Shown here: one piece after another, positions 31,998 to 49,680 of the stretch
How the letters are laid out: every line of letters begins with the position of its first letter
Position numbering within the stretch: the stretch's first letter is position 1
Assembly: GCF_001968985.1 (NCBI RefSeq)
Contig: NZ_MOEN01000001.1
Coordinates: 62,001-126,000 of the forward strand
Direction: 5' to 3'
Origin: Desulfurobacterium indicum
GTDB taxonomy: Bacteria; Aquificota; Aquificia; Desulfurobacteriales; Desulfurobacteriaceae
Length of the DNA: 64,000 bases
Program-made: the position numbers and the translations under genes
Notes under the pieces: generated by a model
What the model saw: the letters and a program-made list of their open reading frames with translations, nothing else
The model's database searches: none
Told to the model about the DNA's origin: nothing

Positions 31998-32015
31998 AGT
32001 TTACTCCTTTAGCTA

Positions 32016-32044
32016 TTGAACGTCTGGTAATACTAAATTATACT
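32016..32044 (+). promoter_or_regulatory. Promoter of thiE
   Basis: TTGAAC (32016-32021), 17-base spacer, TATACT (32039-32044). Expected start near 32051 gives a leader of about 43 bases to the ATG at 32094. A minus-strand TATAAT (32043-32038) overlaps the -10 and could serve ftsY, though no -35 for it is seen. Confidence 0.55.
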
Positions 32045-32093
32045 ATTACTTTGATTTGATTTTTCCACATTTTCGTTTATGAAAGGTGTTCTA

Positions 32094-32729
32094 ATGGATT
32101 TAAGGCTTTATGCAATTACTGATGAACGTTTTATGGATGAAACCAATATAGCCGATAAAGTGGCAGCGGCAATAGAGGGTGGTGTTTCTGTTATTCAGTA
32201 TAGAGCCAAAAGTAAAGATTCTGTTGTTATGTATCGTGAAGCTTTGATTGTTAGGGATGTTACCAAAAAATATAGGATTCCGTTTATCGTTAATGACAGA
32301 CTGGATATTGCCCTTGCTGTGTCTGCCGATGGTGTTCATGTCGGACAGACCGATCTGCCGGTTTCTGTTATAAGGAGAATTGTAGGAAGAGATTTTATAG
32401 TGGGGCTTTCAACTCACAATTTGTTTCAGGTTGAAAATGCCAATAAAGAAGAAGTTAATTACATAGGTTTTGGTCCTGTTTTTCCGACAAATACGAAGAA
32501 GAATCCTGATCCGGTAGTTGGAGTGGACAGTTTATGTGAAGCTGTGAAAAAATCCGTTCATCCGGTTATTGCAATTGGAGGGATTAATTCGGATAATATT
32601 GGCAGTATTCTTATGTGTAAACCTGCAGGTGTCGCAGTTGTCAGAGCGGTTTTTGACGGAGACCCTTTCCTGAATGCCAGAAAATTGAGAGAGAAGATAG
32701 ATGCTGAGATGGGCGGAAGTTTATCTTGA
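32094..32729 (+). CDS. thiE: Thiamine-phosphate synthase
   Basis: Joins hydroxymethylpyrimidine diphosphate and thiazole phosphate to thiamine phosphate. TIM barrel of 211 residues with VIQYRAKSK, FIVNDRLDIAL, ADGVHVGQTDLP, YIGFGPVFPTNTK and AIGGINSDN in family order. I prefer the ATG at 32094 because AAAGGTG lies 5 bases upstream; an in-frame ATG at 32079 has no such site. No thiamine riboswitch is seen in the short leader. The 3' end overlaps alr by 29 bases. Confidence 0.92.
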   Translation: MDLRLYAITDERFMDETNIADKVAAAIEGGVSVIQYRAKSKDSVVMYREALIVRDVTKKYRIPFIVNDRLDIALAVSADGVHVGQTDLPVSVIRRIVGRDFIVGLSTHNLFQVENANKEEVNYIGFGPVFPTNTKKNPDPVVGVDSLCEAVKKSVHPVIAIGGINSDNIGSILMCKPAGVAVVRAVFDGDPFLNARKLREKIDAEMGGSLS

Positions 32730-33756: not shown

Positions 33757-33773
33757 AGTTTGAGAGGGAGGAA

Positions 33774-34595
33774 ATGGAAAGGTATTACATGGCTTTTGAC
33801 TTTGCCATTCCGAACGAAGAGAGAGATAAAGCGGATTGCATACTTTTTGAGGCTGGTTGCAAAGGGATAGAGGATTTAAAAGAGGAGAATGGAATATCGT
33901 ATATTCGTGTCTATTTTGACAGTGAAACCGATTTTAATCCTCAGGTTTCACCTCTTAAGGATTATCTGCTTGGATCTTTCAGAATAGAAGAGCAGAACTG
34001 GAATGAAAACTGGAAAAAGCATTTTAAACCGACGCCTATTGGAAAAAAAATTGTTGTTGTTCCTTCATGGATGAAGGATGATTTTGATCCCGGTGACAGG
34101 ATCCCTATATACATCTATCCGGGGCAGACTTTCGGCACAGGTACTCATGAAACTACAAAGTTGATGATGGAACTTATAGAAGAGTTTATGCTTCCCGGAT
34201 TTTCGTTTCTTGATGTTGGTTGCGGAACCGGCATTCTCTCTATTCTTGCCAGAAAACTGGGTGCTAAAAAAGTTGTGGCTTGCGATATTCAGAAAGAGGT
34301 TGAGGATGAGCTTGAACTTAACATGACTATAAATAATGTTTCTGGTATAGAGTTTATTCCCGGAAGTGTTGATGCTGTTGAAGGGACTTTTGATATGGTT
34401 GCTGCGAACATAGAGAAACACCTCTTAGAGCCGTTAATACCTGATCTTGTCAAAAGGACGGGAAGATATTTACTTGTTTCAGGCATTTTGAAGCATCAAG
34501 AAGAGGATATGGTGAAGAAGCTTAAAAATGAAGGCCTTGTTATTAATGAGATTAGAAGGGAAGATGAATGGATAGCTATAGCGGCAATGAAATAA
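33774..34595 (+). CDS. prmA: Ribosomal protein L11 methyltransferase
   Basis: 273 residues. Methylates amino groups of ribosomal protein L11 with SAM. Seen are the short N-terminal substrate domain, a NWNENWKKHFKP hinge, the family signature GQTFGTGTHETTKL, the SAM-binding loop LDVGCGTGILSILA and VAANIEKHLLEPLIP. GAGGGAGG sits just before the ATG. It overlaps the next gene by 28 bases if the first ATG of that gene is used. Confidence 0.94.
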   Translation: MERYYMAFDFAIPNEERDKADCILFEAGCKGIEDLKEENGISYIRVYFDSETDFNPQVSPLKDYLLGSFRIEEQNWNENWKKHFKPTPIGKKIVVVPSWMKDDFDPGDRIPIYIYPGQTFGTGTHETTKLMMELIEEFMLPGFSFLDVGCGTGILSILARKLGAKKVVACDIQKEVEDELELNMTINNVSGIEFIPGSVDAVEGTFDMVAANIEKHLLEPLIPDLVKRTGRYLLVSGILKHQEEDMVKKLKNEGLVINEIRREDEWIAIAAMK

Positions 34596-35416
34596 TGGTT
34601 GACCTTCATGTCCATACCACCTGTTCCGATGGGACAGATAAACCTGAAGATGTCGTTAGGCTTGCTTATTTGAAAGGACTTTCCTTGATAAGTATCACTG
34701 ATCATGATACGGTTGCAGGGCTAAATAGAGCTATGAGTGCCGGGAAATTATACGGTGTTGATGTTATTCCGGGAATTGAAGTAACAGCGGATACTTCCAC
34801 TCTTCCGGAGTCAGCGGAGTTTCATATTTTGGGATATTTTGTTAATCCTTCTGCTCCATCAATGCTTGAACTTGTGGATTTTTTCTCAAAATCGCGGGAA
34901 GAAAGAAACAGAATCCTTATTGAACGTTTGGAAGAGGAAGGTTTTGATATAAATTACGATGAGCTTGAAAAACTTTTTGGTAAGAATTTTGGAAAACCAA
35001 ATATCGTTACAGTTCTTGTTAAAAAGCATATAGTCTCTTCTCGCGAAAGTGCCTTTGCTCTTTTAAAAAGGTTCAAAGTCAAAAGAAGGAAGCTTGACCA
35101 TAGAGAGATTTTCAAATTGATTAAAGAAGCAGGTGGAATTCCTGTGCTGGCGCATCCTTGCACTTTAAAACTAAAATGTTCGAAGCTTTACGATTTTGTT
35201 GTCGGTTTGAAAAAGGAAGGGCTGGAAGGTATTGAAGTTATTCACTCTGACCATACTCCTTCAATGATTGTAAATTTTAAGGAAATAGCAAAAGACCTTG
35301 GACTTTATACCACGGGCGGTAGCGATTATCACGGGTATAATAAACCTGACATAGACATTGGTATGCTTAAAATTAAAATGAAAGATCTCAATTTTGGTGT
35401 TTTAGCTGGAGTGTAA
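34568..35416 (+). CDS. PHP-domain phosphoesterase
   Basis: 282 residues of the PHP superfamily, stand-alone type related to 3',5'-nucleoside bisphosphate phosphatase / RNase AM (YciV). Metal-binding motifs are DLHVHTTCSDG (12-22), SITDHDTVAG, GIEVTAD, PVLAHPC and GGSDYHG. It hydrolyses phosphate esters, probably of 5' nucleotides or short RNA ends. The ATG at 34568 has AAGGGAAG upstream; an ATG at 34595, overlapping the prmA stop, would shorten it by nine residues and is a real alternative. gpsA follows 2 bases later. Confidence 0.86.
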   Translation: MDSYSGNEIMVDLHVHTTCSDGTDKPEDVVRLAYLKGLSLISITDHDTVAGLNRAMSAGKLYGVDVIPGIEVTADTSTLPESAEFHILGYFVNPSAPSMLELVDFFSKSREERNRILIERLEEEGFDINYDELEKLFGKNFGKPNIVTVLVKKHIVSSRESAFALLKRFKVKRRKLDHREIFKLIKEAGGIPVLAHPCTLKLKCSKLYDFVVGLKKEGLEGIEVIHSDHTPSMIVNFKEIAKDLGLYTTGGSDYHGYNKPDIDIGMLKIKMKDLNFGVLAGV

Positions 35417-35418
35417 TT

Positions 35419-36390
35419 ATGGTTATAGGTATTCTCGGTTCTGGAAGCTGGGGGTCTGCTCTTTCAATTCATTTTGGCAATAATGGTTTTAATGTGATTC
35501 AGTGGTGTCGAGAAAAGGAAGTTGCCGATTCTATAAACAGAGAGAGAGAGAACAGAAAGTATCTTAGTGGTGTTCCTTATCCTGAATCTGTTAGAGCCGT
35601 ATCAGATATAGAAGAATTTTTTGCAAAAGTGAAGGATATCGTTTTCTCTGTTATTCCTGCCCAGTTTACTGGGGATTTCTGGAAAGCTAATAGAGAGTAT
35701 CTTGTAAAGAGAAAAGTTATATGTGCAAGTAAAGGAATAGAGATTTCGTCTTTAAAACTTTTATCGCAGGTTTACGCAGAAGTTGTTGGGGGCGATTATT
35801 TTGTCCTTTCTGGTCCTACGTTTGCAAGGGAGGTTGCTTTTGGAAAGCCCACCGCAGCAGTTCTCGCTGGAAAAAATATAGATAAGACTTTTGAAGTGGT
35901 TAATCTTTTAAATACAAAACTTTTTCGCCTTTACGCTTCCGATGATCTTATCGGCGTTGAAACAGGTGGAGCAATGAAAAATGTTATAGCTATTGCAGCC
36001 GGTATATCTGACGGTATGGAGCTTGGAAACAACGCAAGAGCGGCATTGATAACAAGAGGACTTCATGAGATAAAAAATCTGGGAGTCAGGCTTGGAGGTA
36101 AAGAGAAGACTTTTTATGGTCTTTCAGGAATGGGAGATTTAATTCTTACATGCACCGGTAATCTTTCAAGGAACAGACAGTTCGGCCTTACTATTGGAAG
36201 AGGCGAAGGAGAAGTTGATAAAAAATATGTTGTTGAAGGTGTTCACACAGTAAAGGCAGCCGTGGAGCTTTCGAAGAGGTTGAATGTCGAAATGCCTATA
36301 ACCAGAGCTGTTTACGCTGTCTTGTATGAAGGGAAAAAACCTTCAGAGATAATGCTTGATTTATTATCAAGACCGGTGAAGGAAGAATGA
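35419..36390 (+). CDS. gpsA: Glycerol-3-phosphate dehydrogenase [NAD(P)+]
   Basis: Reduces dihydroxyacetone phosphate to sn-glycerol 3-phosphate for phospholipid synthesis. 323 residues with the Rossmann motif GSGSWGSALS (6-15), SGPTFAREVA, GAMKNVIAIAAGISDGM (catalytic Lys) and GLSGMGDLILTCTGNLSRN. Ester-lipid precursors of bacterial type are thus made here. It overlaps selB by 4 bases. Confidence 0.95.
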   Translation: MVIGILGSGSWGSALSIHFGNNGFNVIQWCREKEVADSINRERENRKYLSGVPYPESVRAVSDIEEFFAKVKDIVFSVIPAQFTGDFWKANREYLVKRKVICASKGIEISSLKLLSQVYAEVVGGDYFVLSGPTFAREVAFGKPTAAVLAGKNIDKTFEVVNLLNTKLFRLYASDDLIGVETGGAMKNVIAIAAGISDGMELGNNARAALITRGLHEIKNLGVRLGGKEKTFYGLSGMGDLILTCTGNLSRNRQFGLTIGRGEGEVDKKYVVEGVHTVKAAVELSKRLNVEMPITRAVYAVLYEGKKPSEIMLDLLSRPVKEE

Positions 36391-38255
36391 AGAAAGTAGT
36401 AACGATAGGAACTGCCGGGCACATAGATCACGGAAAGACATCCCTTGTAAGAAAATTGACAGGCATTGATACGGACCGGTTAAAAGAAGAAAAAGAGAGA
36501 GGCATGACCATAGAACCTGGCTTTGCCCATTTCTTCCTTGATGACTACCTGATAAGCATCGTTGATGTTCCTGGACATGAGAAGTTTATCAAAAATATGG
36601 TAGCCGGTGCTCACGGAATAGATGGTGTTCTTTTTGTTATCGCGGCGGATGAAGGTGTTATGCCTCAGACGGAAGAACACCTTGCCGTTTGTGAGATGCT
36701 CGGGATAGAGAGAGGCATTGTTGTTCTTACGAAAATTGATACTGTTGATGAAGAGTGGCTTGAGCTTGTTGAAGAAGATGTAAAGGATTTTTTAAAAGGA
36801 ACTTTTCTTGAAGATGCTCCGTTTGTTAAAGTTTCTTCCAAAACAGGAGAAGGATTTGACATTTTAAAAGAAGAGTTGAAAAGACTGGCAGAATCCATCA
36901 GGAAACAAAAGGAAGAGAGTTTTCCCCGTCTGCCTGTAGATAGAGTATTTACGGTGAAAGGTTTTGGCACTGTCGTTACGGGTACTCTTTCCGGTGGTAG
37001 ACTTTCGAAAGGGGAGGTTGTTGAGATTTTGCCTTCTAAAGTTGAATCAAAGATTAAAAATTTGCAGACGGCAGGTGCTGATGTGGATGTTGCGTTTCCC
37101 GGTCAGCGGACGGCTGCGAATCTTACAGTGCCGAAAGAGAAGGTCCATAGAGGGAACATCCTGACTCTTCCCGGAATTTTGAATTCTTCAAGAATTGTTG
37201 ATGTAACATTTGCACTTTCAAAAACGGCAACTACTATTGAGAAAAGGATAAAGGTGCACTTTCACTATCTTACGCTCATGGCCGAGGCGGAGATAGTCCT
37301 TATAGATAGAGATGTTTTAAATCCCGGTGAGAGATGTTTTGCTCAGATTATTTTTGACAGGGAAATTTATCCGGTTTACGGGGATAACTTTGTTGTAAGA
37401 ACGATTTCCCCCGGTAGAGTTATAGGAGGCGGCACAATTCTTCATCCTCTTGAAAAGAAGCGTTACCGGAAAAAGTTTGCCGGTGTTTTTATGAAAAAAT
37501 TGAAAGCCCTTTCCGGGGGCAGAGAAGATGCCTTTTTAGAGTTTGTAAAAGAGATGGAGCCTCTTAAAATTGAACTTTTGCCGCAACTTCTTAACATTTC
37601 GCCAGATAATGCAAGGCATTTTGCTCAAAAGTTTGAAAAGGCCGGAGAGGTGGTTGTTTCAGATGGACTTGTTTACACCGCAGAAACCTTCGGCGGTCTG
37701 GTTGAAAAAGCACTGAAAATTGTTGAAGATTATCACAGTAGATATCCTGTGGCAAAAGGTATAAATAGAGAAACGTTAAAAAGTCTCTTAAATGTCGGAG
37801 ATGAACTTTTCTTAAGGATTCTCTCTTCTTCAGGACTTGAAGAAGAGAGAAAAGTTATAAGGCAGAAAGGATTTGTCCCTCATCTTGATGAAAAGTTTTT
37901 AAATTTGAAAGAGAAGCTTGATTCAGAGCTTAGAAAGGGTGGATTTTCCGCACCGAGTTTGGATAATTTAAGAGAAAAGCTCAATATTTCTTCAGAGGAT
38001 TTTTACACCCTTCTCTCTTTTCTTAAAAAAGAAGGTTACAAAACGGCAGGAGAATTTCTCCTTTCTCCTGAAGTTTATCGGAAGATAGAAAGAAGAACGG
38101 TTGACCTTTTAAAACAAAAAGGCGAAATAACAGTCGGTGATTTTAAGGAGCTTTTTAATCTTTCAAGGAAGCACGCCATTCCTTATCTTGAACTTCTTGA
38201 TGCTGAGGGTGTGACGGTGAGAGATTCGTCGGGAAAGCGAAAATTAAACGTATAG
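36387..38255 (+). CDS. selB: Selenocysteine-specific elongation factor SelB
   Basis: 622 residues. EF-Tu-like GTPase that delivers Sec-tRNA to UGA codons marked by a SECIS hairpin. GTAGHIDHGKTSL (G1), IVDVPGHEKFIKNM (G3) and TKID (G4) lead, followed by two beta-barrel domains and about 250 C-terminal residues made of winged-helix repeats (for instance LPQLLNISPDNARHFAQ and KQKGEITVGDFKELF), which bind SECIS RNA and separate SelB from EF-Tu. It implies that the organism makes selenoproteins, though selA, selD and selC are not in the window. Confidence 0.95.
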   Translation: MKKVVTIGTAGHIDHGKTSLVRKLTGIDTDRLKEEKERGMTIEPGFAHFFLDDYLISIVDVPGHEKFIKNMVAGAHGIDGVLFVIAADEGVMPQTEEHLAVCEMLGIERGIVVLTKIDTVDEEWLELVEEDVKDFLKGTFLEDAPFVKVSSKTGEGFDILKEELKRLAESIRKQKEESFPRLPVDRVFTVKGFGTVVTGTLSGGRLSKGEVVEILPSKVESKIKNLQTAGADVDVAFPGQRTAANLTVPKEKVHRGNILTLPGILNSSRIVDVTFALSKTATTIEKRIKVHFHYLTLMAEAEIVLIDRDVLNPGERCFAQIIFDREIYPVYGDNFVVRTISPGRVIGGGTILHPLEKKRYRKKFAGVFMKKLKALSGGREDAFLEFVKEMEPLKIELLPQLLNISPDNARHFAQKFEKAGEVVVSDGLVYTAETFGGLVEKALKIVEDYHSRYPVAKGINRETLKSLLNVGDELFLRILSSSGLEEERKVIRQKGFVPHLDEKFLNLKEKLDSELRKGGFSAPSLDNLREKLNISSEDFYTLLSFLKKEGYKTAGEFLLSPEVYRKIERRTVDLLKQKGEITVGDFKELFNLSRKHAIPYLELLDAEGVTVRDSSGKRKLNV

Positions 38256-38293
38256 TCGTTCCCCTGAACTCTGTTTAAATCTCTTGAAAACAG

Positions 38294-38322
38294 TTGCAAA
38301 TTGGTAATCGTGGTAATATAAT
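38294..38322 (+). promoter_or_regulatory. Promoter of rpsU-yqeY-mutS2
   Basis: TTGCAA (38294-38299), 17 bases, consensus TATAAT (38317-38322). The predicted start near 38329 gives a 32-base leader with AAAGGAGG before the rpsU ATG. Confidence 0.7.
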
Positions 38323-38360
38323 GGCACTAGCAAAATTACCACCAAAGGAGGCGATGCTTA

Positions 38361-38588
38361 ATGGCAACAATTTACGTGCGTGACGGAGAGCCATTTGAGA
38401 AGGCGCTGAAGAGATTCAAAAAACTGTGTGAAAAGGAAGGTATCCTTACCGAAATTAAGAGAAGAGAATACTACGAAAAGCCGAGTGAAAAGAGAAAGAG
38501 AAAGGCAATGGCTGCAAGGAAGCGCCTTATCAAGGCTCTCAAGAAGCGCGGTCTTCTTCCACCGAGGGGTAAGAAGAAGAAAAAGTAA
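38361..38588 (+). CDS. rpsU: 30S ribosomal protein S21
   Basis: 75 residues, very basic, with the S21 pattern [18 protein letters not shown] followed by [16 protein letters not shown]21 helps the 30S subunit select mRNA. A strong ribosome site (AAAGGAGGCG) precedes it and a yqeY homologue follows 20 bases later, a pairing found in many bacteria. Confidence 0.96.
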
Positions 38589-38608
38589 TTATTTAAGAGG
38601 CGTTACTG

Positions 38609-39061
38609 ATGGGATTAAAAGAGAAACTTATTAAAGACATGAAAGAGGCCATGAAGGCCAAAGATAAGGTTAGACTCAGCACCATCAGGATGATAAACTC
38701 TCTCATAAAGAATGCCGAAATAGACAAGCGTGGTGAGCTTACAGACGAAGAGATTGTTTCTCTTCTCCAGAAATATGCAAAGCAGAGGCGTGAATCTATA
38801 GAACTTTATGAAAAAGGTGGCAGGCAGGACCTTGTAGAGAAGGAGAAGGCAGAGCTTGCAATTGTTGAGTCTTATCTTCCAGAACAGATGGGAGAGGATG
38901 AGATTCGTAAAGTAGTTGAAGAAGCTATAGCCGAAACGGGAGCTTCTTCACTGAAAGATTTAGGTAAAATTATGAAAATTGTAATTCCTAAAGTTAAAGG
39001 AAAGGCTGACGGTTCTGTTGTTAACAGGATTGCAAGAGAACTTCTCTCAGGAGAAAGTTAA
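38609..39061 (+). CDS. yqeY: GatB/YqeY domain protein
   Basis: 150 residues of the GatB/YqeY family: an N-terminal four-helix part (KEKLIKDMKEAMKAKDKVRL, then STIRMINSLIKNAEID) and a C-terminal tail-like domain (LKDLGKIMKIVIPKVKGKADGSVVNRI) related to that of the amidotransferase subunit GatB. It is thought to act on or near tRNA, but no activity is established. Downstream of rpsU and probably co-transcribed. Confidence 0.92.
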   Translation: MGLKEKLIKDMKEAMKAKDKVRLSTIRMINSLIKNAEIDKRGELTDEEIVSLLQKYAKQRRESIELYEKGGRQDLVEKEKAELAIVESYLPEQMGEDEIRKVVEEAIAETGASSLKDLGKIMKIVIPKVKGKADGSVVNRIARELLSGES

Positions 39062-39125
39062 TTACCATGGCTTATAATCGTGGCGCTGGCACTCCTTTGG
39101 TCTATTGGAGGGGGTATTCATCATA

Positions 39126-41405
39126 ATGTTCAAAGGAGTGTGGCGCCACCTTGATTTTGATACTCTCCTTGAGAAAACTGCCTCCCTTGCCCGGAGTGAA
39201 TCTGGTAGAAAGGCGGTTCTCTCCATTACACCTTCTACCGATGTTTCGGAGATAACAGAAGAGACACTTATTACATTTGAATTTGTAAGACTTCTGACAG
39301 AAAAATCTTTTCCCCTTGAAGCTTTCCCCGATATTTCATCAATTATAAAAAAGGCAAAAGTTGAAGGTGTGATATTTTCAATTCCTGAAATTCTCTCCGT
39401 TCATGCTGTCTGTTCTCAATCTAAAATTGTTAAAAAGTTCCTCAATAATATAAGGGAAAGATTCCCGAGGCTTTCGGCTTTCTCCAGTTCTCTTTCAAGT
39501 TTTCTTGAATTGAGGGAACTTATTGAGTCTTCCATTGATGAAAACGGTGAAATTCTTGATACTGCGTCTTCTAACCTTAAAATGATAAGGGAGAAAAAGA
39601 GACAGATTGCAGACAGTATAAAAAAACGGCTTGAATCCCTTGTCAGAAGGAACGAAGATATCTGTCCCGATCAAATTATAACCATACGAAACGGCAGATA
39701 CGTTGTTCTTGCCAAAAACAGCTACAAAAAACGGTTTTCAGGTATCGTTCACGACCGGTCTATTTCAGGACATACTGTCTATGTTGAACCTGCCTTTGTT
39801 GTTGATGATAACAACAGGTTAAGAGAACTTGCGACAGAAGAAGAGAAAGAGATAAAGAGGATTCTCACCTACATAAGTAAAAAGATAAGGGAAAACAGAT
39901 TCCGTATTTCTGCTGCCTTTTCAACGCTTGTTGAACTTGATAGACGATACGCAGTTGCTGAAATGAGCCGCAGGTTGAAAGGCACGCTTCCTGAGATTTC
40001 GGACAGGATAGAACTTAAAGATGCAAGACATCCGCTTCTTGCCCTTTTACAAAAAGAAGTTATTCCTGTTGATGTAAAGGTTGAAAAAGGCCTTGTTATT
40101 ACTGGTCCGAATACCGGCGGTAAGACGGTAATACTTAAAACTCTGGGACTTTCCACTTTGATGTTTCAATCGGGATTTCTCATACCTGCTGCGGAAGGCA
40201 GTAAAATCCGTATTTTCAAGAAAGTAAGGGCAGACATAGGTGATGAGCAGAGCATTGAACAGAGTCTGAGCACTTTCAGCGCTCATGTTAAAAATATTTC
40301 TGAGCTTCTTAACGAAGCTGATAAGGATACCCTTGTTCTTCTTGATGAGCTTGGTGCCGGAACAGATCCGATAGAAGGTTCGAGCCTTGGTGTTGCGATA
40401 CTGGAATATTTAAAAGAAAAAGGTGCCATTTTAATCATAACAACCCACTTTACGCCGATAAAACTTTATGCTTATAAAGATGACTATTACGAGGTTGCAT
40501 CTGTTCTCTTTGACGAAAAGAGTTTGAAGCCTCTTTACCGTCTTGCCTACGGAGTAATAGGTAGAAGTTACGCTTTTGTTATAGCCAAGCGCTACGGTAT
40601 GCCTGATGTTGTTATAGAAAAGGCGCAGAAACTTCTATCTTCGGAGGATAGAATTGCATCTGAAATTGTTGCGGCGCTGGAATCTGAATATAGAGCCCTT
40701 CAGAGCGAGAGAGAGCAGGTTGCAAAATTAAAGGAAGAACTTGAGAGAGAAAGAGAAAAACTTGAGAAGGAAAAAGAACTTTTAAAAGAAAAAGGTGTTG
40801 AAAACCTTCAGGCTTACATAAGGGAGTTTAGAGAAAAAAGCGAGAAGCTTCTTGCCGAAATTCAGGACGAAAGACTCAGAAAAAAGGTAAGGGCGCTTAT
40901 ACAGGAAGCTAAAAAGAAGGTGGAAGCAGCTGAAGAGAAAGAGATAAAGAAAGCTGCTGCGGAAATAAAGCCCGGCATGATTGTAAAGGTAAAAAAGACA
41001 GGAAGGAAAGGAACAGTTATAACCGTTGATACAGAGAGAGGTACAGCAAAAGTTGCGATAGGTGCTTTGAAAATAGACATGAAGTTAAATCAGCTTGAGC
41101 CTGTTATTGAAACCGTTATAGATGAAAGAAAAATAAGAATAGACACAAAAATGCCTCAAAACTTTTTCCCTGAAATTAAACTACTCGGGATGAGAGGAGA
41201 TGAAGCGCTTGATGCTGTTGAAAAATTCCTTGACGATGCAAGAATTGCAGGATTTCACAGGGTTAAAATCGTTCACGGTCATGGAACAGGCATTTTAAAA
41301 CGGCTTGTTCGGACATATCTGAAGGATTCTCCTTATGTTAAATCATTTCGTGCTGGAAAAATAGAAGAAGGTGGTGACGGCATTACGATTGTGGAGTTGA
41401 AATAG
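39126..41405 (+). CDS. mutS2: Endonuclease MutS2
   Basis: 759 residues. Walker A is GPNTGGKT, Walker B LVLLDELGAGTDP, followed by the coiled-coil (about 515-600, rich in Glu/Lys/Arg) and a C-terminal Smr domain with GMRGDEALDAV and VHGHGTGILKRLV. There is no N-terminal mismatch-recognition domain, which separates it from MutS. MutS2 acts on branched DNA or on collided ribosomes. The ATG at 39126 has GGAGGGGG 13 bases upstream; an in-frame TTG at 39105 would add seven residues and is less likely. Last gene before the CRISPR array. Confidence 0.94.
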   Translation: MFKGVWRHLDFDTLLEKTASLARSESGRKAVLSITPSTDVSEITEETLITFEFVRLLTEKSFPLEAFPDISSIIKKAKVEGVIFSIPEILSVHAVCSQSKIVKKFLNNIRERFPRLSAFSSSLSSFLELRELIESSIDENGEILDTASSNLKMIREKKRQIADSIKKRLESLVRRNEDICPDQIITIRNGRYVVLAKNSYKKRFSGIVHDRSISGHTVYVEPAFVVDDNNRLRELATEEEKEIKRILTYISKKIRENRFRISAAFSTLVELDRRYAVAEMSRRLKGTLPEISDRIELKDARHPLLALLQKEVIPVDVKVEKGLVITGPNTGGKTVILKTLGLSTLMFQSGFLIPAAEGSKIRIFKKVRADIGDEQSIEQSLSTFSAHVKNISELLNEADKDTLVLLDELGAGTDPIEGSSLGVAILEYLKEKGAILIITTHFTPIKLYAYKDDYYEVASVLFDEKSLKPLYRLAYGVIGRSYAFVIAKRYGMPDVVIEKAQKLLSSEDRIASEIVAALESEYRALQSEREQVAKLKEELEREREKLEKEKELLKEKGVENLQAYIREFREKSEKLLAEIQDERLRKKVRALIQEAKKKVEAAEEKEIKKAAAEIKPGMIVKVKKTGRKGTVITVDTERGTAKVAIGALKIDMKLNQLEPVIETVIDERKIRIDTKMPQNFFPEIKLLGMRGDEALDAVEKFLDDARIAGFHRVKIVHGHGTGILKRLVRTYLKDSPYVKSFRAGKIEEGGDGITIVELK

Positions 41406-41555
41406 TATAATAGCTGTGATCTTTTACATCTGAATATGCAAAAAGGTTTTTTAAAAGTTGTATGTTCAGAGATACTGATTTTCAATGAGTTTTAGATTAG
41501 TATGAAAGACTTAACTTTCGAAACCTTTGAAAGTACATGCCTAAAATTCGGTGCA
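41406..41555 (+). other. Putative CRISPR leader
   Basis: A+T-rich 150 bases between mutS2 and the first repeat. It begins with TATAAT (41406-41411) and contains an ACTTTC/GAAAGT inverted repeat at about 41514-41534, followed by TGAAAGTACATGCCTAAAA, which loosely resembles the repeat start and may be a relic. Assigned as leader because the repeat at the opposite end of the array is the decayed one. Confidence 0.5.
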
Positions 41556-42182
41556 GTTGAAATGCCCTTAAAAGTGAGAGGGATTGCGACGAGATTAATT
41601 TCCCCCTTCTCTACGAAGAGAAGAAGGAATTCTTGTTGAAATGCCCTTAAAAGTGAGAGGGATTGCGACTAAGGACGGATAATAGTTTTTTATAAAACCT
41701 TCAAGCGTTGAAATGCCCTTAAAAGTGAGAGGGATTGCGACCAAGGGATAACCTTCTTTATATACAGTTATCCCTTTGTTGAAATGCCCTTAAAAGTGAG
41801 AGGGATTGCGACAGTTTTGCCTTTACGGTATGAGACATTTTTTTCTCGTTGAAATGCCCTTGAAAGTGAGAGGGATTGCGACCTCTTCCAAATCCTCCTC
41901 CTCCTCTTCTGGGGGGAGGAGAAGTTGAAATGCCCTTAAAAGTGAGAGGGATTGCGACCGCGGGGTTCACTACGCTTAAAATGATGCTGCCGTCCTCGCT
42001 GGTTGAAATGCCCTTAAAAGTGAGAGGGATTGCGACTTTTAAGTCTTACTGGTATAAATACGAATATATCCTTGTTCATTGTTGAAATGCCCTTAAAAGT
42101 GAGAGGGATTGCGACCGGTCACTATAGGATGTTGAAGACCAATATTGGTCTTCCAGTTGAAATGCCCTTAAAAGTGAGAGGG
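41556..42182 (+). CRISPR. CRISPR array, nine 35-base repeats, eight spacers, no cas genes nearby
   Basis: The repeat begins GTTGAAATGCCCTTAAAAG and ends GTGAGAGGGATTGCGAC. Copies start at 41556, 41635, 41707, 41778, 41848, 41924, 42002, 42081 and 42156. All full copies are identical except the fifth, which has one A to G change (CCTTGAAAG). The ninth keeps 27 bases and then diverges, marking the distal end. Spacers measure 44, 37, 36, 35, 41, 43, 44 and 40 bases. The ATTGCGAC 3' end resembles the 8-base crRNA handle of type I-B and III repeats, so transcription is probably left to right. Several spacers hold perfect inverted repeats. No cas gene lies in the 20 kb on either side. Confidence 0.93.
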
Positions 42183-42599
42183 TTATTTGTCATCCTGAGT
42201 GAAGTGAATGGTAGGCAAAAATAAAGAAAAGGGATTTCTGTAAATTTTTACAAGTGTTATTTGATGTACGATGGTAGATAATTTTAAAAAACTTGAAATT
42301 TTTTCGCCGGAAGGTTAGCGGGATATATTATTTTTTTACTGGATAGTTTTAAGTTTATTCTTGGTTGAGACTGTTGATTTTTCTACTCTCAGTAAACTTT
42401 TACATCCAGGAAGTAGCTATAACGGATTTAATTACCTCCCATTTTTCTATCCATTATTGTTCTTGCTAATGCTGCTTTCTTTAGTAGAAAACAAAGAACT
42501 AAAAATGTCATATTTTTCTGATTATCTGTTTGGCGTGGTGATTGCTTTTCTGAAAGTTGTTTTATAATTTTTGTTTTAAGTTTTAATTTCGGGAATTTG
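42183..42599. other. Gap between the CRISPR array and the EamA pseudogene
   Basis: About 420 A+T-rich bases without a convincing gene. Bases 42188-42211 (TCATCCTGAGTGAAGTGAAT) resemble the TCATCCTGAGCGAAGCGAA intergenic repeat seen in many bacterial genomes. From 42319 to 42567 one plus-strand frame stays open and encodes a hydrophobic stretch without a good start codon; this could be a gene remnant or simply a by-product of T-rich DNA. Confidence 0.4.
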
Positions 42600-43436
42600 A
42601 TGAAATCTAAAGGTTTTCTTGAGATGTTAGGGGCTACTTCCATATGGGGCAGTGTTCCTCTTATGGGTATATGGTCAGGGCTGCCGAGCGGTGTATTTGT
42701 ATTTTTTAGAGTTCTCTTTGCGTTTCCTTTTGTTTTTTACTTTGCCGTCAGGAAAAGTTCTTTAAAAGAATTTTTTAATTTAAAACCTTATTGGCCTTTG
42801 CTTTTAAGCGGTATCATGCTTGGAGTTAACTGGGTTTTCTTTTTCTGGGCAGTTAAAGTTACGGATATTGCAACTGTTGTAACTATCTATTATGCAGGTC
42901 CTGTGATTTCCATTCTTTTGGCAGCGTTCTTTTTGAAAGAAAGGATGAATCTTTTTACGGTTGTTTCTATTTTTTTAGCTTTTGCCGGTGTTGTCGTCAG
43001 CAGCGGCGGATTTAATATAGATAAAGGTGCGGTTATTGCCCTGCTTGCTACGGGTTTCTTGGATTTTTCTCAAAAGTTTCCACCATTCATCATAAAGCAG
43101 TTACAGTTACCGCCTGGCAGATACTTATATCCATCTTTATTACTGTTCCTTTTCTATTCCTAACTGACTGGTGTTTCACAGTAAACGGCTTTTTAGTTAC
43201 TCTCTTTGCAGGTATTATTCATACAGCTCTTGCCCTTTTTCTCTGGTATGATGCCCTTAATTATATTAAGGTTTCGTTTGCTTCTATATTGCAATACTTT
43301 GATATAGTTTTTGCAATTATTCTTGCCTATCTTTTTCTTTCTCAAGTTCCTACCGCTCGGCAGGTTTTGGGAGCTTTTTTTAATTATAGCTGCCGGAAGT
43401 TTGATTTCGATGAAAGAAGTAAAATCTGGAAGTTAA
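42600..43436 (+). pseudogene. EamA/DMT-family transporter, frameshifted
   Basis: The reading frame starts as a drug/metabolite transporter (MLGATSIWGSVPLMG, later MLGVNWVFFFWAVKVTDIAT and YYAGPVISILLAAFFLKERM), then shifts near 43065-43080 at a TTTTTCTCAAAAG stretch. The second half continues in another frame (TVTAWQILISIFITVPFLFL, later HTALALFLWYDALNYIK) and a further extra T in the 7-T run at 43375-43381 breaks the last 20 residues, which otherwise would end at 43436. Both breaks lie at T runs, so either the gene has decayed next to the CRISPR array or these are sequencing errors. Confidence 0.75.
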
Positions 43437-43529
43437 CTCTTTTAGTCTTCCACTAATATTGTATTTGTCATATATTTACTAATACAGTTAAAGTAATGAT
43501 TATATGATGTCTGAATTTTCGGAGGAAGA

Positions 43530-43685
43530 ATGCAGATTTACGTTTTTAAGTGTAACGAGTGCGGAAAAGAGTTTGAAGTGGAAATCTTTGCACCGCTTCA
43601 GGTTCTTGATGTTAAGTGTCCGGAATGCGGCTCGGATGATGTTGAGGTGATAAACATCATCAATATCTGTTCACCGTTTGGCTGA
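43530..43685 (+). CDS. Small zinc-ribbon protein (FmdB-like)
   Basis: 51 residues: MQIYVFKCNECGKEFEVEIF, then a CPECG knuckle and an acidic tail ending NICSPFG. Two CxxC pairs (Cys8/Cys11 and Cys30/Cys33) should bind one zinc, as in the FmdB regulatory family of small ribbons. GGAGG (43521-43525) lies just upstream and a terminator directly follows, which supports a real stand-alone gene. Role unknown. Confidence 0.72.
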   Translation: MQIYVFKCNECGKEFEVEIFAPLQVLDVKCPECGSDDVEVINIINICSPFG

Positions 43686-43695
43686 GGTTGATAGA

Positions 43696-43720
43696 AAGGG
43701 GAAGGTTTCCCCTTATTTTT
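43696..43720 (+). terminator. Terminator between the zinc-ribbon gene and truD
   Basis: AAGGGGAA/TTCCCCTT 8-bp stem with a 3-base loop, then ATTTTT on the plus strand. The convergent truD stop lies in the tail, so it may act in both directions. Confidence 0.8.
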
Positions 43721-44576
43721 AACCACAAAAAATTAGATAAACTGTTGCGTAGGCGCCTTTTGGAAGTGAGAAAGAGATAAAGTCGTTCTCAATTTTCGCT
43801 TCAACCGGGAGGTATGTTTTTCTAAAATCTCCCTTTATTCTCAAATTCTTTAAGGTTTTGATGAAATCATCTGTTGAAATGCCTTCTTTTAGTAATATCT
43901 TTTTGTAAAAAGACCAGCTTTCCCTGTAATCCTTTTTATGTCCTGCAATTGTCCAGAATCTCGGCACTTTTTCTCTGATTTTTTCAAAGGGTTCTGAAGG
44001 AATAAAAAAGCGAAAATCTTCATGAGTTTTAAATGTTCCTTCTACCGTTTCAGATAGATAAAGGTTCAGCGTTTCGTTCCACAGGAATGACAGGAAGGCA
44101 TCTATGAGGAAGTTTTCCCGCCACTTTAGCTTCCTTGGTTTTTCCATAAGTTTTTTAAAAAGTTTTTTTCCTTTGTCAATGTTTCCTTTCAATCTCTGGA
44201 TTCCGTAAAAGTTTATGAAGTAATCGGCAGGTTTAACCTTTTGCCCGTGCAATTTTATGTAAAATCGGTTTCCCTTCAGGTGTCCGATTTTTATCTTCTT
44301 TTTTATTTTTCCGATAAATTTTAAAAAATAAGTTCCGTCTTTAAGGTTTTCTCTTATATGGTTGCCTTTAAATTCCGGGAATGTAACGTGCTGAACTGTT
44401 ATGGCTGTTTTGTCTTTAAGTCCTGCATAGGAAAAGCCTAAGAAGGATGCAAGCTCTCTCGTTGTGAGGTTTTTCTTCGTTAAAAGGTATAAAAAGTGTG
44501 TTCCATTTTCATCCGTTTCAAGAGAAGCTTCTTCAATGACTATAAAATCTTTGGGTCTCTTTTTTATCTCTATCAT
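43719..44576 (-). CDS. truD: tRNA pseudouridine(13) synthase
   Basis: 285 residues. Converts U13 of certain tRNAs to pseudouridine. The catalytic aspartate sits in YAGLKDKTAITVQ; GNRFYIKLHG and INFYGIQRLKGN are the other TruD signatures. It is shorter than the 349-residue E. coli enzyme, mainly in the TRUD insertion domain. It starts 2 bases after the comM-like stop and ends the long folP-truD run. Confidence 0.88.
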   Translation of the reverse strand: MIEIKKRPKDFIVIEEASLETDENGTHFLYLLTKKNLTTRELASFLGFSYAGLKDKTAITVQHVTFPEFKGNHIRENLKDGTYFLKFIGKIKKKIKIGHLKGNRFYIKLHGQKVKPADYFINFYGIQRLKGNIDKGKKLFKKLMEKPRKLKWRENFLIDAFLSFLWNETLNLYLSETVEGTFKTHEDFRFFIPSEPFEKIREKVPRFWTIAGHKKDYRESWSFYKKILLKEGISTDDFIKTLKNLRIKGDFRKTYLPVEAKIENDFISFSLPKGAYATVYLIFCG

Positions 44577-44578
44577 TT

Positions 44579-46093
44579 TTAGTTTGTCGAAATGTTTTCT
44601 CTAAATCCCAGAGTTTCAATTATGTGTTTTGGCTGGATTACATCTGATCCATCAAGGTCTGCTATTGTTAACGAGAGTTTTAAGATTCTATTATAAGCTC
44701 TTGCAGATAGTGCATAGGTTTTAACGGCGCGGTTTAGTATCTCTTCCGCTTGCTCTGTAAGTTTACAGAATTTTTTTATGGCTTTTGAGTCCATCTTTCC
44801 GTTGAATGAAAACGACAGTTTTTTGAATCTCTCTTTTTGCCTTTCGTGGGCTTTTGTGACTCTTTTTCTGATTTTTTCAGAGGATTCGCCTTTTTCCATC
44901 TTTGCAAGTTCTTCTGGCTTTACAGCAGGTAAGGATACGTGAATGTCTATTCTGTCAAGTATTGGACCTGAAACTTTTGAACGGTAGCGTTTTACCTGTG
45001 CAGGCGAACAAGTGCAATAATGAACACCATCTTCAAATCCATAAAAGCCGCAGGGACAAGGGTTCATGGCTGCTACAAGCATGAATTTTGCCGGGAAGGT
45101 TACGCTTCCTGAAATCCTTGAGATTGTAACTTCTCCGTCTTCTATCGGTTGTCTTAAGGCTTCAAGGGCAGAACGCTTAAATTCTGGAAATTCATCGAGA
45201 AAGAGAACACCGTTGTGAGCAAGGCTCACCTCGCCGGGTTTGATACTGCTTCCCCCGCCTATCAGTGCTACATCCGATACAGTATGGTGCGGTGCACGGT
45301 AGGGTCTTTCTGTTATTATGCCGTTTAACATTCCTGCGGCACTGTATATCTGTGTCGTTTCTATGATTTCCTTTTCTGTCATTGGCGGCAGTATTGTTGG
45401 GATTCTCCTTGAAAGCATTGTTTTTCCTGAGCCTGGTGGTCCTACAAAAAGTATGTTGTGTCCGCCGGCTGCCGCTATTTCAACAGCTCTTTTGGCATGA
45501 TACTGGCCGGCAATGTCTGACATGTCAATGGTAAAGCTGAAGTTATTTTCTATTAAGTTTTTTGTAATAGGTTCTATCTGAATGTCGCCGTTTAAAAATG
45601 CAACAGCCTCTGAGAGGTGCTTAATCGGGATTATTTCAATACCACTTATGAGTGAGGCTTCTTCTGCGTTTTCTGCAGGTAGAATTATTCCCCTGTAATC
45701 TTTCTGTTTTGCAAGTATTGCTGCGGCAAGGGCGCCTTTGACCTTTCTTATCTCGCCTTTGAGACCAAGTTCACCGGCTATTAGATATTCGTTTAGCCTT
45801 TTGCCTGATACGATGTTCTGTGCCACTAATATGCCGATTGATATGGGAAGGTCGTATATTGTTCCTTCTTTTTTGACATCTGCCGGTGCAAGGTTTATAA
45901 CAATTTTCTTTGCAGGAAAAGGATAACCTGAATTTACAATTGCTGCTTTTACCCTTTCTCTACTTTCTTTTACGGCAGAATCCGGAAGTCCAACAACTAT
46001 GGTACCCGGCATGCCTCTGCTGGCATCAACCTGAACTAAAACCTCAACGGCATTAACACCTATCAATGTGTAGCTTTTAACGTTGGAAACCAT
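44579..46093 (-). CDS. comM: YifB/ComM-family Mg-chelatase-like AAA ATPase
   Basis: 504 residues: an N-terminal Lon-like domain (VEVLVQVDASRGMPGTIVVG), the AAA core with Walker A GPPGSGKT and Walker B GVLFLDEF, a cysteine cluster (PCPCGFYGF then YCTCSP) and the C-terminal Mg-chelatase lid. ComM is a hexameric branch-migration helicase helping natural transformation in Vibrio and Acinetobacter. No other competence gene is adjacent. Confidence 0.92.
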   Translation of the reverse strand: MVSNVKSYTLIGVNAVEVLVQVDASRGMPGTIVVGLPDSAVKESRERVKAAIVNSGYPFPAKKIVINLAPADVKKEGTIYDLPISIGILVAQNIVSGKRLNEYLIAGELGLKGEIRKVKGALAAAILAKQKDYRGIILPAENAEEASLISGIEIIPIKHLSEAVAFLNGDIQIEPITKNLIENNFSFTIDMSDIAGQYHAKRAVEIAAAGGHNILFVGPPGSGKTMLSRRIPTILPPMTEKEIIETTQIYSAAGMLNGIITERPYRAPHHTVSDVALIGGGSSIKPGEVSLAHNGVLFLDEFPEFKRSALEALRQPIEDGEVTISRISGSVTFPAKFMLVAAMNPCPCGFYGFEDGVHYCTCSPAQVKRYRSKVSGPILDRIDIHVSLPAVKPEELAKMEKGESSEKIRKRVTKAHERQKERFKKLSFSFNGKMDSKAIKKFCKLTEQAEEILNRAVKTYALSARAYNRILKLSLTIADLDGSDVIQPKHIIETLGFRENISTN

Positions 46094-46114
46094 AACTTGA
46101 TTTTACTAAAAATT

Positions 46115-46894
46115 TCATTTTGGTGCCATTTGCCAGATTTTTCTGAAAAGGGACAGCATCTCGGTCGGCGGTATTTCTTCGGCTCTCTTTTGAAATATCT
46201 CTTCTAATTCTGTTGAAGGTGGTTTCCCTACGTTGTTTTTTAGCTTTTTACGCCTGTTTGAGAAGGCTCTTTTCAGGAAATTCTCAAACTCTTTGAGTTC
46301 TTTCTCTTCCATTCGAAAGTTTAGAGGAGTCATTTTAAAGACGGTTGACCAGACTTTCGGCGGTGGAACAAAGGCACTGGGAGGAACATCAAAGAGTTTC
46401 TCTATTTTGAAAAAGTTTTGAAGCAGTGCCGGCAGATAGCCGTAATCCTTTCCGGAGGTGCTGGTAAGTCTGTTGGCGACTTCTTTCTGTGTCATAAATA
46501 CTGCACTGTGGATTGTATTAATGTGATTTAGAAGGTTTCTTATTATTACAGTAGAAACGTTATAAGGAAGATTTCCCAGAATCTTCAGACTGTTTCCTGC
46601 CTGTGAAAAATCAAACTTTTTGGCATCTTCGTTGAGTATTTTGAAATTTTCGTGAGATTTGAATTTTTCCTTCAGGAATTCCACCATTTCCGGGTCTATT
46701 TCAACACATACAAGTATTTTCGGATTTCTTTTCAGTATCTCTTCCGTCAAAGCGCCGCCACCGGGTCCTATTTCAACGACTGTGTCGGATGAATCTATTC
46801 CGGCGGCGTTAACTATCTTTCTAATTATGTTCTTATTCTTTAAAAAATGCTGTCCAAGAGATTTTTTAAGTCTTGGAAGTCTATTCTTCAACAA
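46115..46894 (-). CDS. rsmA: 16S rRNA (adenine(1518)-N(6)/adenine(1519)-N(6))-dimethyltransferase
   Basis: 259 residues (KsgA). SLGQHFLKNKNIIRKIV at the N-terminus, the SAM loop VEIGPGGGALTEEIL and the catalytic NLPYNVST motif are all present, followed by a helical C-terminal domain. It dimethylates two adenines in the 3' terminal helix of 16S rRNA during 30S maturation. The start overlaps the end of glmM by 14 bases. Confidence 0.95.
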   Translation of the reverse strand: MLKNRLPRLKKSLGQHFLKNKNIIRKIVNAAGIDSSDTVVEIGPGGGALTEEILKRNPKILVCVEIDPEMVEFLKEKFKSHENFKILNEDAKKFDFSQAGNSLKILGNLPYNVSTVIIRNLLNHINTIHSAVFMTQKEVANRLTSTSGKDYGYLPALLQNFFKIEKLFDVPPSAFVPPPKVWSTVFKMTPLNFRMEEKELKEFENFLKRAFSNRRKKLKNNVGKPPSTELEEIFQKRAEEIPPTEMLSLFRKIWQMAPK

Positions 46895-48224
46895 TGCCCT
46901 CTTTTTTAAATGCTTTTTTAATTATTGAAATGGTTTTTTTTATCAGGTCTTCGCTTTCGGCTTCTACCATTATTCTGACCAAGGGTTCTGTTCCTGAATA
47001 TCTGACAAGCACTCTTCCTTTGTCTTCAAGTGTAAGTTCGGCGTCGGCTATTGCCTTTTTAACTTCTTCCAGTTTGTCTATCGGTTTTTTATCTTTTACC
47101 CTGAGATTAACAAGTTTTTGTGGATATTTCTGGAAAACGTTTGTAAGTTCGCTGAATGTTTTGCCGCTTTTTTTAAGAATTGAAGCAAGAAGAATCGCGG
47201 TTAAGATACCGTCTCCCGTTTCCATGAATCTTTTTATTATTATGTGTCCGGATTGTTCGCCGCCTATTATTGCACCTACTTTTTCCATCTTTTCTGATAC
47301 GTACCTGTCGCCTACAGGAGTTCTGTAGAACTCTATACCTTTTGATTTTATGTATTTTTCAAGTCCGAGATTGCTCATTACGGTTGCAACAACGGGTTCG
47401 GATTCACCAAAATAATCAGACAAAAGGGCTATTATTTCGTCTCCGTCTATAATGTTTCCTTTTTCATCAACAGCAACACATCTGTCGGCATCACCGTCAA
47501 ATGCAAATCCGACGTCTGCTTTAATTTCTTTTAACTTTTCTGCTAGAAATTCAGGATGTGTAGCACCGCAGTTTTTGTTTATATTTAGGCCGTCGGGTTC
47601 TGCGTTATAAGTGAATACTTTTGCACCTAAGGCTTTAAAAACTTCCGGTGCTATCATGTATGCTGCACCATTTGCACAGTCAAGGGCTATTCTAAGTCCA
47701 GCAAGGTATGTTCCAGTTTCCTCAAGGAACTTTGCGTAGCTTTCTAAAAGTCCTCTTCCGTCAAAGATCCTGCCTATTTCAAGCGGTGATGCTTTTGGGA
47801 GTTCGTACTTGTTAAATATTACAAGTTCCAGAGATGCTTCTTCCATCTCTGAAAACTTTTTTCCTTTCCGGTTAAAAAATTTTATGCCGTTGTATTCTGC
47901 GGGATTGTGAGATGCTGATATCATAATTCCCATTGATAAAGAAAAGTTTTTTACCATATAGGAGATGGAAGGGGTGGTTGTCGTTCCGAGGTATGTAACA
48001 TCGATTCCTGTTGCTGTGAGTCCGGAAATTAGTGCCGAAATTATCATATCTGAAGAGGCGCGTGTGTCTTTTCCAATTACAACTGTATGTTTTTTGTCGG
48101 GATACTTGGCTTTAAGGTAGCATCCTGTTGCTACACCGATTTTTTGCGTCATTTCACAGGTTAAAGGAAATTCGTTTGCCACGCCGCGGATACCATCAGT
48201 TCCAAAAAGTTTTTTCTTCGGCAT
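46881..48224 (-). CDS. glmM: Phosphoglucosamine mutase
   Basis: 447 residues. Converts glucosamine 6-phosphate to the 1-phosphate for UDP-GlcNAc. KLFGTDGIRGVAN opens the chain, the active serine is in ISASHNPAEYNG, the metal loop is DGDADRC, and the C-terminal phosphate site is RYSGTEPLVRIM. It follows cdaA and cdaR in the order known from Gram-positive bacteria, where GlmM protein binds and restrains the c-di-AMP synthase. Confidence 0.96.
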   Translation of the reverse strand: MPKKKLFGTDGIRGVANEFPLTCEMTQKIGVATGCYLKAKYPDKKHTVVIGKDTRASSDMIISALISGLTATGIDVTYLGTTTTPSISYMVKNFSLSMGIMISASHNPAEYNGIKFFNRKGKKFSEMEEASLELVIFNKYELPKASPLEIGRIFDGRGLLESYAKFLEETGTYLAGLRIALDCANGAAYMIAPEVFKALGAKVFTYNAEPDGLNINKNCGATHPEFLAEKLKEIKADVGFAFDGDADRCVAVDEKGNIIDGDEIIALLSDYFGESEPVVATVMSNLGLEKYIKSKGIEFYRTPVGDRYVSEKMEKVGAIIGGEQSGHIIIKRFMETGDGILTAILLASILKKSGKTFSELTNVFQKYPQKLVNLRVKDKKPIDKLEEVKKAIADAELTLEDKGRVLVRYSGTEPLVRIMVEAESEDLIKKTISIIKKAFKKEGIVEE

Positions 48225-48227
48225 TTT

Positions 48228-48872
48228 TTACCTCCTGATTAACTTCACTTCTACACTTTCCGGGAAGGTTCTGTAAGGTGATGCTATTTTAGCGTAAATG
48301 GTGCCGTTTGATTTTAGATAAGTTGTATCTATGGGTTCAGTTTTAACAGAGTTTATTGTGGATGTTTTTGATTCGGGTATATATATGGTTACGTAGTTAG
48401 GAGTGGTGTTTTCCACTTTGAATTTTCGTCTTTTTTTTCCGATTAGAACGACTTTTACAGGTACCAGTTTTCTGATGACTTTTTCAAGTTTTAGGGTGAG
48501 TTTTTTTGTTTTAACATTTATTATAGAAACATCAGGAAGTTGAGGTTTTAAAGTTATTATGGAAGGATTAATGGATATGATAGTAGTTCCATTACTTCTA
48601 ATGTGGCGGGGTGGAAGTTTTATGTAAATTTTGCCTTCTTCTTTTATAAATTCTATGGATTTCTTAGTTCCCTCTACTTCAACAGCTATTTTTTTAGGAG
48701 TGTAATCTGCCACATTTACGGTAGGTGGTGTTTCTATTTTTAAAGGTAGCTTTACTGTTAAGACAATGGATTCCTGTTTTGCTGCCAAGAACCACAGCAG
48801 AAATGAAAATATTACTGCAAATAGCTTATAATGGAAATTTTTGAAAATTTTATCGACTATCTTTTTCAACAT
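48228..48872 (-). CDS. cdaR: YbbR/CdaR-like regulator of c-di-AMP synthase
   Basis: 214 residues with one N-terminal membrane helix (YKLFAVIFSFLLWFLAA) and the rest outside the inner membrane as two YbbR repeats (LKIETPPTVNVADYTPKKIA; then VPVKVVLIGKKRRKFKVENT). Firmicute homologues have four. It overlaps cdaA by 23 bases and lies 3 bases upstream of glmM, matching the conserved cdaA-cdaR-glmM module, so it probably modulates the cyclase. Confidence 0.88.
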   Translation of the reverse strand: MLKKIVDKIFKNFHYKLFAVIFSFLLWFLAAKQESIVLTVKLPLKIETPPTVNVADYTPKKIAVEVEGTKKSIEFIKEEGKIYIKLPPRHIRSNGTTIISINPSIITLKPQLPDVSIINVKTKKLTLKLEKVIRKLVPVKVVLIGKKRRKFKVENTTPNYVTIYIPESKTSTINSVKTEPIDTTYLKSNGTIYAKIASPYRTFPESVEVKLIRR

Positions 48873-49680
48873 TTTCGCCCTTCAGAAAGGTAGTGATTAG
48901 TTCTTTAATCGCATTTTTCGTCTCTATTTCTTTTACAAGAAGTGATTTTAAGATTCTCTTTAACCTTTGGGGTTCAAGGTTTTTGATCAATTTGCCATGG
49001 TAAGCTATTGATATGTTTCCCGTCTCTTCAGAAACGATAACAGCTATTGCATCGGTTTCTTCCGTTATTCCTATAGCTGCTCTGTGCCTTGTTCCTACTA
49101 CCTGTGGGAGTTTGGTATTTAGGGTTAACGGTAGAAAAACTCCTGCCTTTTTTATCCGGTCTTCTCTTACAATTACTGCCCCGTCATGAAGGGGAGTCCC
49201 GGGCCAGAATATCGTTATTAGCAGTTCTTTTGATACCTCACCGTCAATTTCTGTTCCGGCTTCTGCGTAGCTGTCCGTTTTTACGTCTCTTTCAATGACT
49301 ATTAGTGCTCCTATTTTGTCCTGTGACATAGTGGCAGAAGCCCTGACGATTTCATCGATGACTTTTTCTGCTTCATACCGCTGAGCAAACAGTCCCATCT
49401 GTCCTTCACCAAGTCTTGCAAGCAGTTTTCTTATCTCAGGCTGGAATATCACGATGATGGCAAAAATTCCGATTGTCAGGACGTTGTTTAGAAGGAATGA
49501 AAGGGTGTAAAGATCAAGGAGCTTTGCCAGGACGCTTAACATGACGATGGTCATAATTCCGAAAAGAATCTGTATTGCCCGTGTTTTGGATAGATAGATT
49601 AAAACTCTATATATGAGGAAGGAGACGATGCCTATGTCTATAAGGTCTCTTATTGTTATCTGTGGTAAAACGTTTAGCAT
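48850..49680 (-). CDS. cdaA: Diadenylate cyclase CdaA
   Basis: 276 residues. Three N-terminal membrane helices (1-90) precede the DAC domain, which makes c-di-AMP from two ATP. The active-site motifs are PLHDGAVIV (DGA) and GTRHRAAIGITEETDAIAV (RHR), both intact. Its start is 1 base after the folP stop. c-di-AMP usually controls potassium uptake and wall homeostasis; its receptors are not visible in this window. Confidence 0.95.
   Translation of the reverse strand: MLNVLPQITIRDLIDIGIVSFLIYRVLIYLSKTRAIQILFGIMTIVMLSVLAKLLDLYTLSFLLNNVLTIGIFAIIVIFQPEIRKLLARLGEGQMGLFAQRYEAEKVIDEIVRASATMSQDKIGALIVIERDVKTDSYAEAGTEIDGEVSKELLITIFWPGTPLHDGAVIVREDRIKKAGVFLPLTLNTKLPQVVGTRHRAAIGITEETDAIAVIVSEETGNISIAYHGKLIKNLEPQRLKRILKSLLVKEIETKNAIKELITTFLKGENVEKDSR

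Follow-up and report, generated by a model that had tools for sequence, protein, structure and literature searches.

Two of the eight spacers in a CRISPR array of Desulfurobacterium indicum contain perfect 10-bp inverted repeats, and the question raised by this locus is how spacers able to fold into hairpins came to be there. The array lies in a 64,000-nucleotide stretch of the genome (referred to as the window; features are listed in Table 1), and consisted of nine 35-nt repeats, the last of which was shortened, and eight spacers of 35-44 nt, spanning 41591-42155. It was preceded by a 766-aa MutS2-like ORF (39105-41405; named from its sequence), and the truncated repeat was located at the end opposite the probable leader. 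This leader aligned with the sequence preceding another array of the same genome, on contig C18, including an exact AAAAGTTGTATG block. The last repeat of the C18 array was cut at the same GAGAGGG point, and the sequences 3' of both arrays (window 42183-42209, and locus L009 on C18) were nearly identical: TTRTTTGTCATCCTGRGYGAAGYGAA. These shared ends look as if the array had been copied, or as if an element had entered the same spot. Inspection by eye of the ORFs listed for 32000-50000 revealed no cas gene, and Rfam gave no match at 38000-46000 of the window or in nine related loci. Further 3' (42597-43440), a DMT/EamA-like transporter gene, identified by reading its sequence, showed an apparent frameshift break after 188 codons.

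Table 1. Positions of the array and its parts within the window.
Feature	Position	Strand	Description
Probable leader	41406..41555	+	Between MutS2-like gene and first repeat
CRISPR array	41556..42182	+	Nine repeats of GTTGAAATGCCCTTAAAAGTGAGAGGGATTGCGAC; fifth with one change, ninth only 27 nt
Spacer 1	41591..41634	+	7-bp stem, 4-nt loop, 41606-41623; shuffle P = 0.18, not significant
Spacer 3	41742..41777	+	Whole-spacer hairpin at 41743-41776; shuffle P = 0.001
Spacer 5	41883..41923	+	7-bp purine/pyrimidine stem CTCCTCC/GGAGGAG; shuffle P = 0.24, not significant
Spacer 8	42116..42155	+	20-nt perfect palindrome, 42134-42153 (10 bp, loop-free); shuffle P = 0.0005
Terminal repeat	42156..42182	+	Truncated after GAGAGGG

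The sole Cas1 of this genome (a 1.6-Mb draft of 61 contigs) was found on C18, inside a type III-A locus encoding Cas10/Csm1, Csm2, Csm3, Csm4, Csm5, Cas6, Cas1 and two Cas2, together with accessory genes for a Csx1-like CARF-HEPN protein, a Card1-like nuclease and a SAVED-Lon protein. The type III-A assignment was based on Cas10/Csm1 (L009:1835-4300; TIGR02578, 575.6 bits) with HD and palm2 Pfam domains, on Csm2-5 scoring above the NCBIfam cut-offs, and on cas1 and the two cas2 genes adjoining an array of related repeats. Cas6 exceeded the Pfam cut-off, with an NCBIfam score of 58.6 bits against a cut-off of 58.65 bits. Cas1 was a plain protein of 315 aa; neither an RVT_1 (reverse transcriptase) match nor a Cas3 over the cut-off was detected in the genome. 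The two cas2 genes, which differed from each other, were adjacent to one another 3' of cas1 (L009:10519-11111). Upstream of cas10, the SAVED-Lon protease gene (L009:286-1755; PADLOC SAVED_LON_TM, 438 bits), which we take to resemble the CalpL type of type III effector, was accompanied by an 85-aa ORF (L009:29-286). The adjoining array on C18 contained three spacers, the first with an 8-bp stem; its repeats were 89-91% identical to those of the window, and its leader was similar. Since the repeats and spacer lengths, the resemblance between the leaders and the presence of a complete type III-A locus in this genome all agreed, the window feature is an ordinary, genuine CRISPR array. Judged from sequence, it belongs to a type III-A system with its cas genes on a different contig. 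Cas1-Cas2 of C18 probably fills the window array, and its processing and use by the C18 locus are putative, as suggested by the similarity of repeat and leader.

For each spacer, the stem was taken to be its longest inverted repeat with perfect Watson-Crick pairing, and was compared with 2000 dinucleotide shuffles of that spacer. The first-pass annotation had described hairpins in four spacers. Those of spacers 3 and 8 were present as described and exceeded the shuffled controls, whereas the stems of spacers 1 and 5, also present, did not rise above chance. The 10-bp stem of spacer 3 was formed by the arms AAGGGATAAC (41743-41752) and GTTATCCCTT (41767-41776) around a 14-nt loop, and the folding z-score of this spacer was -3.9. 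The 5' arm of spacer 5 was located at 41895-41901; the start at 41898 given previously corresponds to another register in the same CTC repeat. The earlier estimate of chance, about 1 in 1000 per spacer for a 10-bp stem, was roughly correct, and stems of at least 10 bp in two spacers of the array were obtained in 5e-5 of 20000 shuffled arrays.

The window repeat family was present in 19 of the 22 genomes of the bacterial family and, among named genomes, in 36 stretches; the related arrays came from MAGs bearing the names Thermovibrio, Desulfurobacterium and Desulfurobacteriaceae. An initial set contained 201 spacers (196 distinct; 195 tabulated with a stem of at least 2 bp), and a second set, after removal of duplicates and reverse complements, 337 distinct spacers of 30-56 nt from 64 arrays. 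Among the 337, stems reached 8 bp or more in 13, 9 bp or more in 11 and 10 bp or more in 9, against 2.60, 0.71 and 0.18 expected from shuffles and 2.64, 0.70 and 0.16 predicted from host DNA outside arrays. Stems of at least 10 bp thus occurred in 2.7% of spacers, against 0.28% of intergenic stretches and 0.05% of host DNA. An absence of such a bias from related arrays had been named beforehand as a possible refutation, and these arrays did carry the bias. A later set of 161 new spacers comprised 69 with 34-36-nt repeats, 89 with 28-30-nt repeats, and 3 with a 22-nt repeat, which were dropped; the 69 type III-like spacers contained 4, 2 and 1 stems of at least 8, 9 and 10 bp, respectively (0.58, 0.19 and 0.05 expected). 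The folding z-scores of type III spacers were lower than those of host DNA (P = 0.009), but were not separated from those of intergenic DNA (P = 0.17). The family-wide excess of hairpin spacers is real and statistically solid, and spacers 3 and 8 belong to a small hairpin class (about 2-3%) in the window repeat family.

Several individual arrays of this family may be described here. The stem-richest was found in genome G002 (L042), with stems of at least 6 bp in 7 of 11 spacers. In another array (L093), spacers 11 and 13 were different spacers with near-identical hairpins (GGGTACA...TGTACCC), as if variants of a repeated element had been captured twice. Four genomes (G002, G005, G019 and G020) carried arrays of the window repeat, but no Cas1, and neither Csm1 nor Cmr2 over the cut-off; these are orphan arrays or reflect gaps in the drafts.

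The control consisted of 487 spacers from arrays with 28-31-nt repeats, mostly beside Cas3: 398 around Cas3 hits in the phylum and 89 (28-30-nt repeats) near Cas10, the latter of undefined type and the arrays not being matched individually to cas genes. Stems of at least 10 bp occurred in 10 of 406 type III-like spacers and 1 of 487 control spacers (P = 0.002); at 9 bp or more, the numbers were 13 and 6 (P = 0.036), and at 8 bp or more the contrast was weak: 17 and 11 (P = 0.07). The controls were themselves enriched, with about 0.7 stems of at least 9 bp expected among the 487; in the 398 Cas3-near spacers, stems of at least 8, 9 and 10 bp numbered 10, 5 and 1, while shuffles expected 2.42, 0.65 and 0.21, respectively. 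A simple comparison with shuffles thus gives apparent enrichment even in the controls, so that any claim of specificity for type III calls for controls matched by source. Within the family, type III and type I spacers did not differ significantly (5/231 and 1/90; P = 0.46), nor did folding energy z-scores separate the two types (P = 0.28). Among 77 type III spacers of Thermus, there was one stem of at least 8 bp (0.80 expected) and none of at least 9 bp, and the other Thermus classes had no stems of at least 8 bp (the "29-nt" class of this tally also holds two small arrays of two spacers each, one of type III whose consensus is 32 nt long and one of a 22-nt repeat). Restriction of the hairpin excess to type III is plausible but unproven, since the same-family comparison was not significant and the Thermus type III arrays showed no excess.

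The first-pass annotation had proposed searching the spacers against phage, plasmid and own-genome sequence, terminators in particular; these searches were run and gave no source. In its own genome, the window array had no other strong match outside CRISPR arrays; no further occurrence was found in 136 genomes of spacer 3, with 3 mismatches allowed, or of a 22-nt part of spacer 8, with 2 allowed, and the array matched phage and plasmid records only at E values of 0.6 or worse. The 48-repeat array (L095) had no match in phage records, six stem patterns had none in viral contigs, and BLAST of the 337 spacers against related loci returned short matches only. Plasmid matches of one related locus (L082) were rejected: those listed lay within query positions 179-614, in aspS where annotated, outside the array. 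In all, no protospacer was found in the own genome, the 136 genomes, phage and plasmid records or viral contigs. Among the causes suggested previously were terminators or inverted-repeat elements. Terminators would account for a minority of cases: of the 17 type III-repeat spacers whose stems reached 8 bp, three were terminator-like, with five or more T within the 8 nt that follow the stem on one of the strands, and spacers 3 and 8 were not among the three. One spacer of 406, from a relative, resembled a tRNA T-arm; beyond the array, no site in its own genome came within 3 mismatches of it, so that a self origin is not demonstrated. Matches to rRNA were at most 18 nt in both the type III and control sets, using an E. 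coli operon as the reference, which limits sensitivity.

The reading that we favour, although with little confidence to spare, is that Cas1-Cas2 of this type III lineage prefers hairpin-forming DNA, yielding both spacers 3 and 8 and the family excess. Single-stranded DNA would fold into hairpins during replication, transfer or transcription, these would be taken by Cas1-Cas2 as ready double-stranded prespacers, and spacers 3 and 8 would have been copied from such DNA. Capture of hairpin DNA was also among the causes listed in the first-pass annotation, and is the best-supported of them, given the family-wide excess and the preference reported in a review for type III-A adaptation (PMC9048733). 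A hairpin preference has already been proposed in print as a mechanism, and the window array fits it without strain. According to the experiments described in that review, adaptation by the type III-A system of Streptococcus thermophilus favoured single-strand origins and oriT of plasmids, riboswitch terminators, and rRNA and tRNA regions (PMC9048733); hairpins of single-stranded DNA were proposed there as the preferred substrates, with Cas1 and Cas2 sufficient (Zhang et al. 2021, cited in PMC9048733), and a study of Staphylococcus epidermidis type III-A agreed for rRNA and tRNA (Aviram et al. 2022, cited in PMC9048733).

The S. thermophilus system (Csm), as described in that review, is like that of the window in being free of reverse transcriptase and in its enrichment of hairpin-forming spacers (PMC9048733). 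It differs in that the bias was measured on new spacers with known sources, whereas the arrays here are natural ones of Aquificota thermophiles, with sources unseen. The S. epidermidis system, operating in S. aureus, is also type III-A and RT-free and, according to the same review, favours structured RNA genes; here, rRNA and tRNA genes were not seen to be favoured, with one tRNA-like and no clear rRNA spacer among 406. The type III repeats of Thermus thermophilus plasmid pTT27, which carries type III-A and III-B loci, end in GGGGATTGCGAC, similar to the GGGATTGCGAC of the window; Thermus differs in the absence of a hairpin excess from its 77 spacers, in its high-GC host, and in having several other systems. 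A direct report of hairpin or palindrome spacers in natural arrays was not found, which is weak evidence of novelty because many journals lay outside the search.

The position of stems within spacers provided a further lead. Type III stems of at least 8 bp were more central than those of controls, with a mean asymmetry of 0.44 (n = 17) and 0.73 (n = 11), respectively (P = 0.02), a comparison picked after the data had been seen and so a lead only; against uniform placement, the P value for type III was 0.08. Control stems of at least 7 bp were often flush with the spacer edge (10/24; 4.1 expected), while type III stems showed no such excess (8/34; 5.5 expected). Edge-flush stems were considered as a signature of capture and dropped as a principal argument, because a longer hairpin cut at the edge gives the same pattern and because of this lack of a flush excess in type III. 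It is conceivable, but rather doubtful, that in Aquificota the type III-A Cas1-Cas2 measures DNA hairpins and integrates each as an intact unit, so that it lies in the middle of the spacer, and that the type I machinery of this phylum catches only cut pieces, flush with the edge; if true, such spacers would document hairpin capture in nature and would give a structural rule for type III prespacers.

The chief rival to a capture preference is that hairpins (terminators, origins and other palindromes) abound in the viruses and plasmids of these hosts, and that Cas1-Cas2 samples this DNA without any preference. We regard this as a real possibility that falls short of being probable. The extra hairpins in control arrays of the same phylum (6/487 at 9 bp or more) are what it would lead us to expect, as are the three terminator-like spacers and two low-GC phages in which stems of at least 10 bp occupied 0.36-0.6% of stretches, against 0.05% of host DNA. 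On the other hand, the four phage stretches sampled ranged from 0 to 0.6% of spacer-length stretches, and the type III-like spacers exceeded even the richest of them (P = 2e-4); for stems of at least 10 bp they also stood above the controls.

Selection after acquisition would keep palindromic guides, which pair with transcripts of either strand and work in both orientations. Type III systems recognise RNA, so that the strand matters, and the central tendency of type III stems is compatible with this idea; however, spacer 8 is symmetric over only half of its length and spacer 3 only in its arms, and pairing of a guide with itself would be expected to weaken its binding to targets, leaving selection improbable. 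Chance, in the form of two odd spacers picked by eye from one window, is less probable still. Single spacers with 10-bp stems do arise in shuffles (approximately 1 in 2000), and the window was selected on account of these spacers, but the excess persisted when its array was left out (8/398 spacers with stems of at least 10 bp), and the comparisons with shuffles and host DNA disfavour chance as well. Acquisition from structured RNA through a reverse transcriptase, either joined to Cas1 or encoded in its vicinity, has a precedent in RT-Cas1 systems, reported to acquire spacers from RNA (PMC11014452); it is hardly credible here, where Cas1 has no such partner, and where RVT_1 was matched in only 1 of 22 family genomes, that of the window not being the one. 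That the repeats are not a working CRISPR, as the first-pass annotation had allowed and as the lack of cas genes among the ORFs inspected nearby might suggest, is equally hard to credit, being contradicted by the anatomy of repeats, leader and spacers and by the type III-A locus on C18.

The preference of type III-lineage Cas1-Cas2 for hairpin-forming DNA, if it is the cause of spacers 3 and 8, bears on the choice of spacers in RT-free type III systems. A hairpin bias that is readable in natural arrays would make this preference accessible to study from genome sequence alone, in whatever organism has been sequenced, with no need for acquisition experiments.
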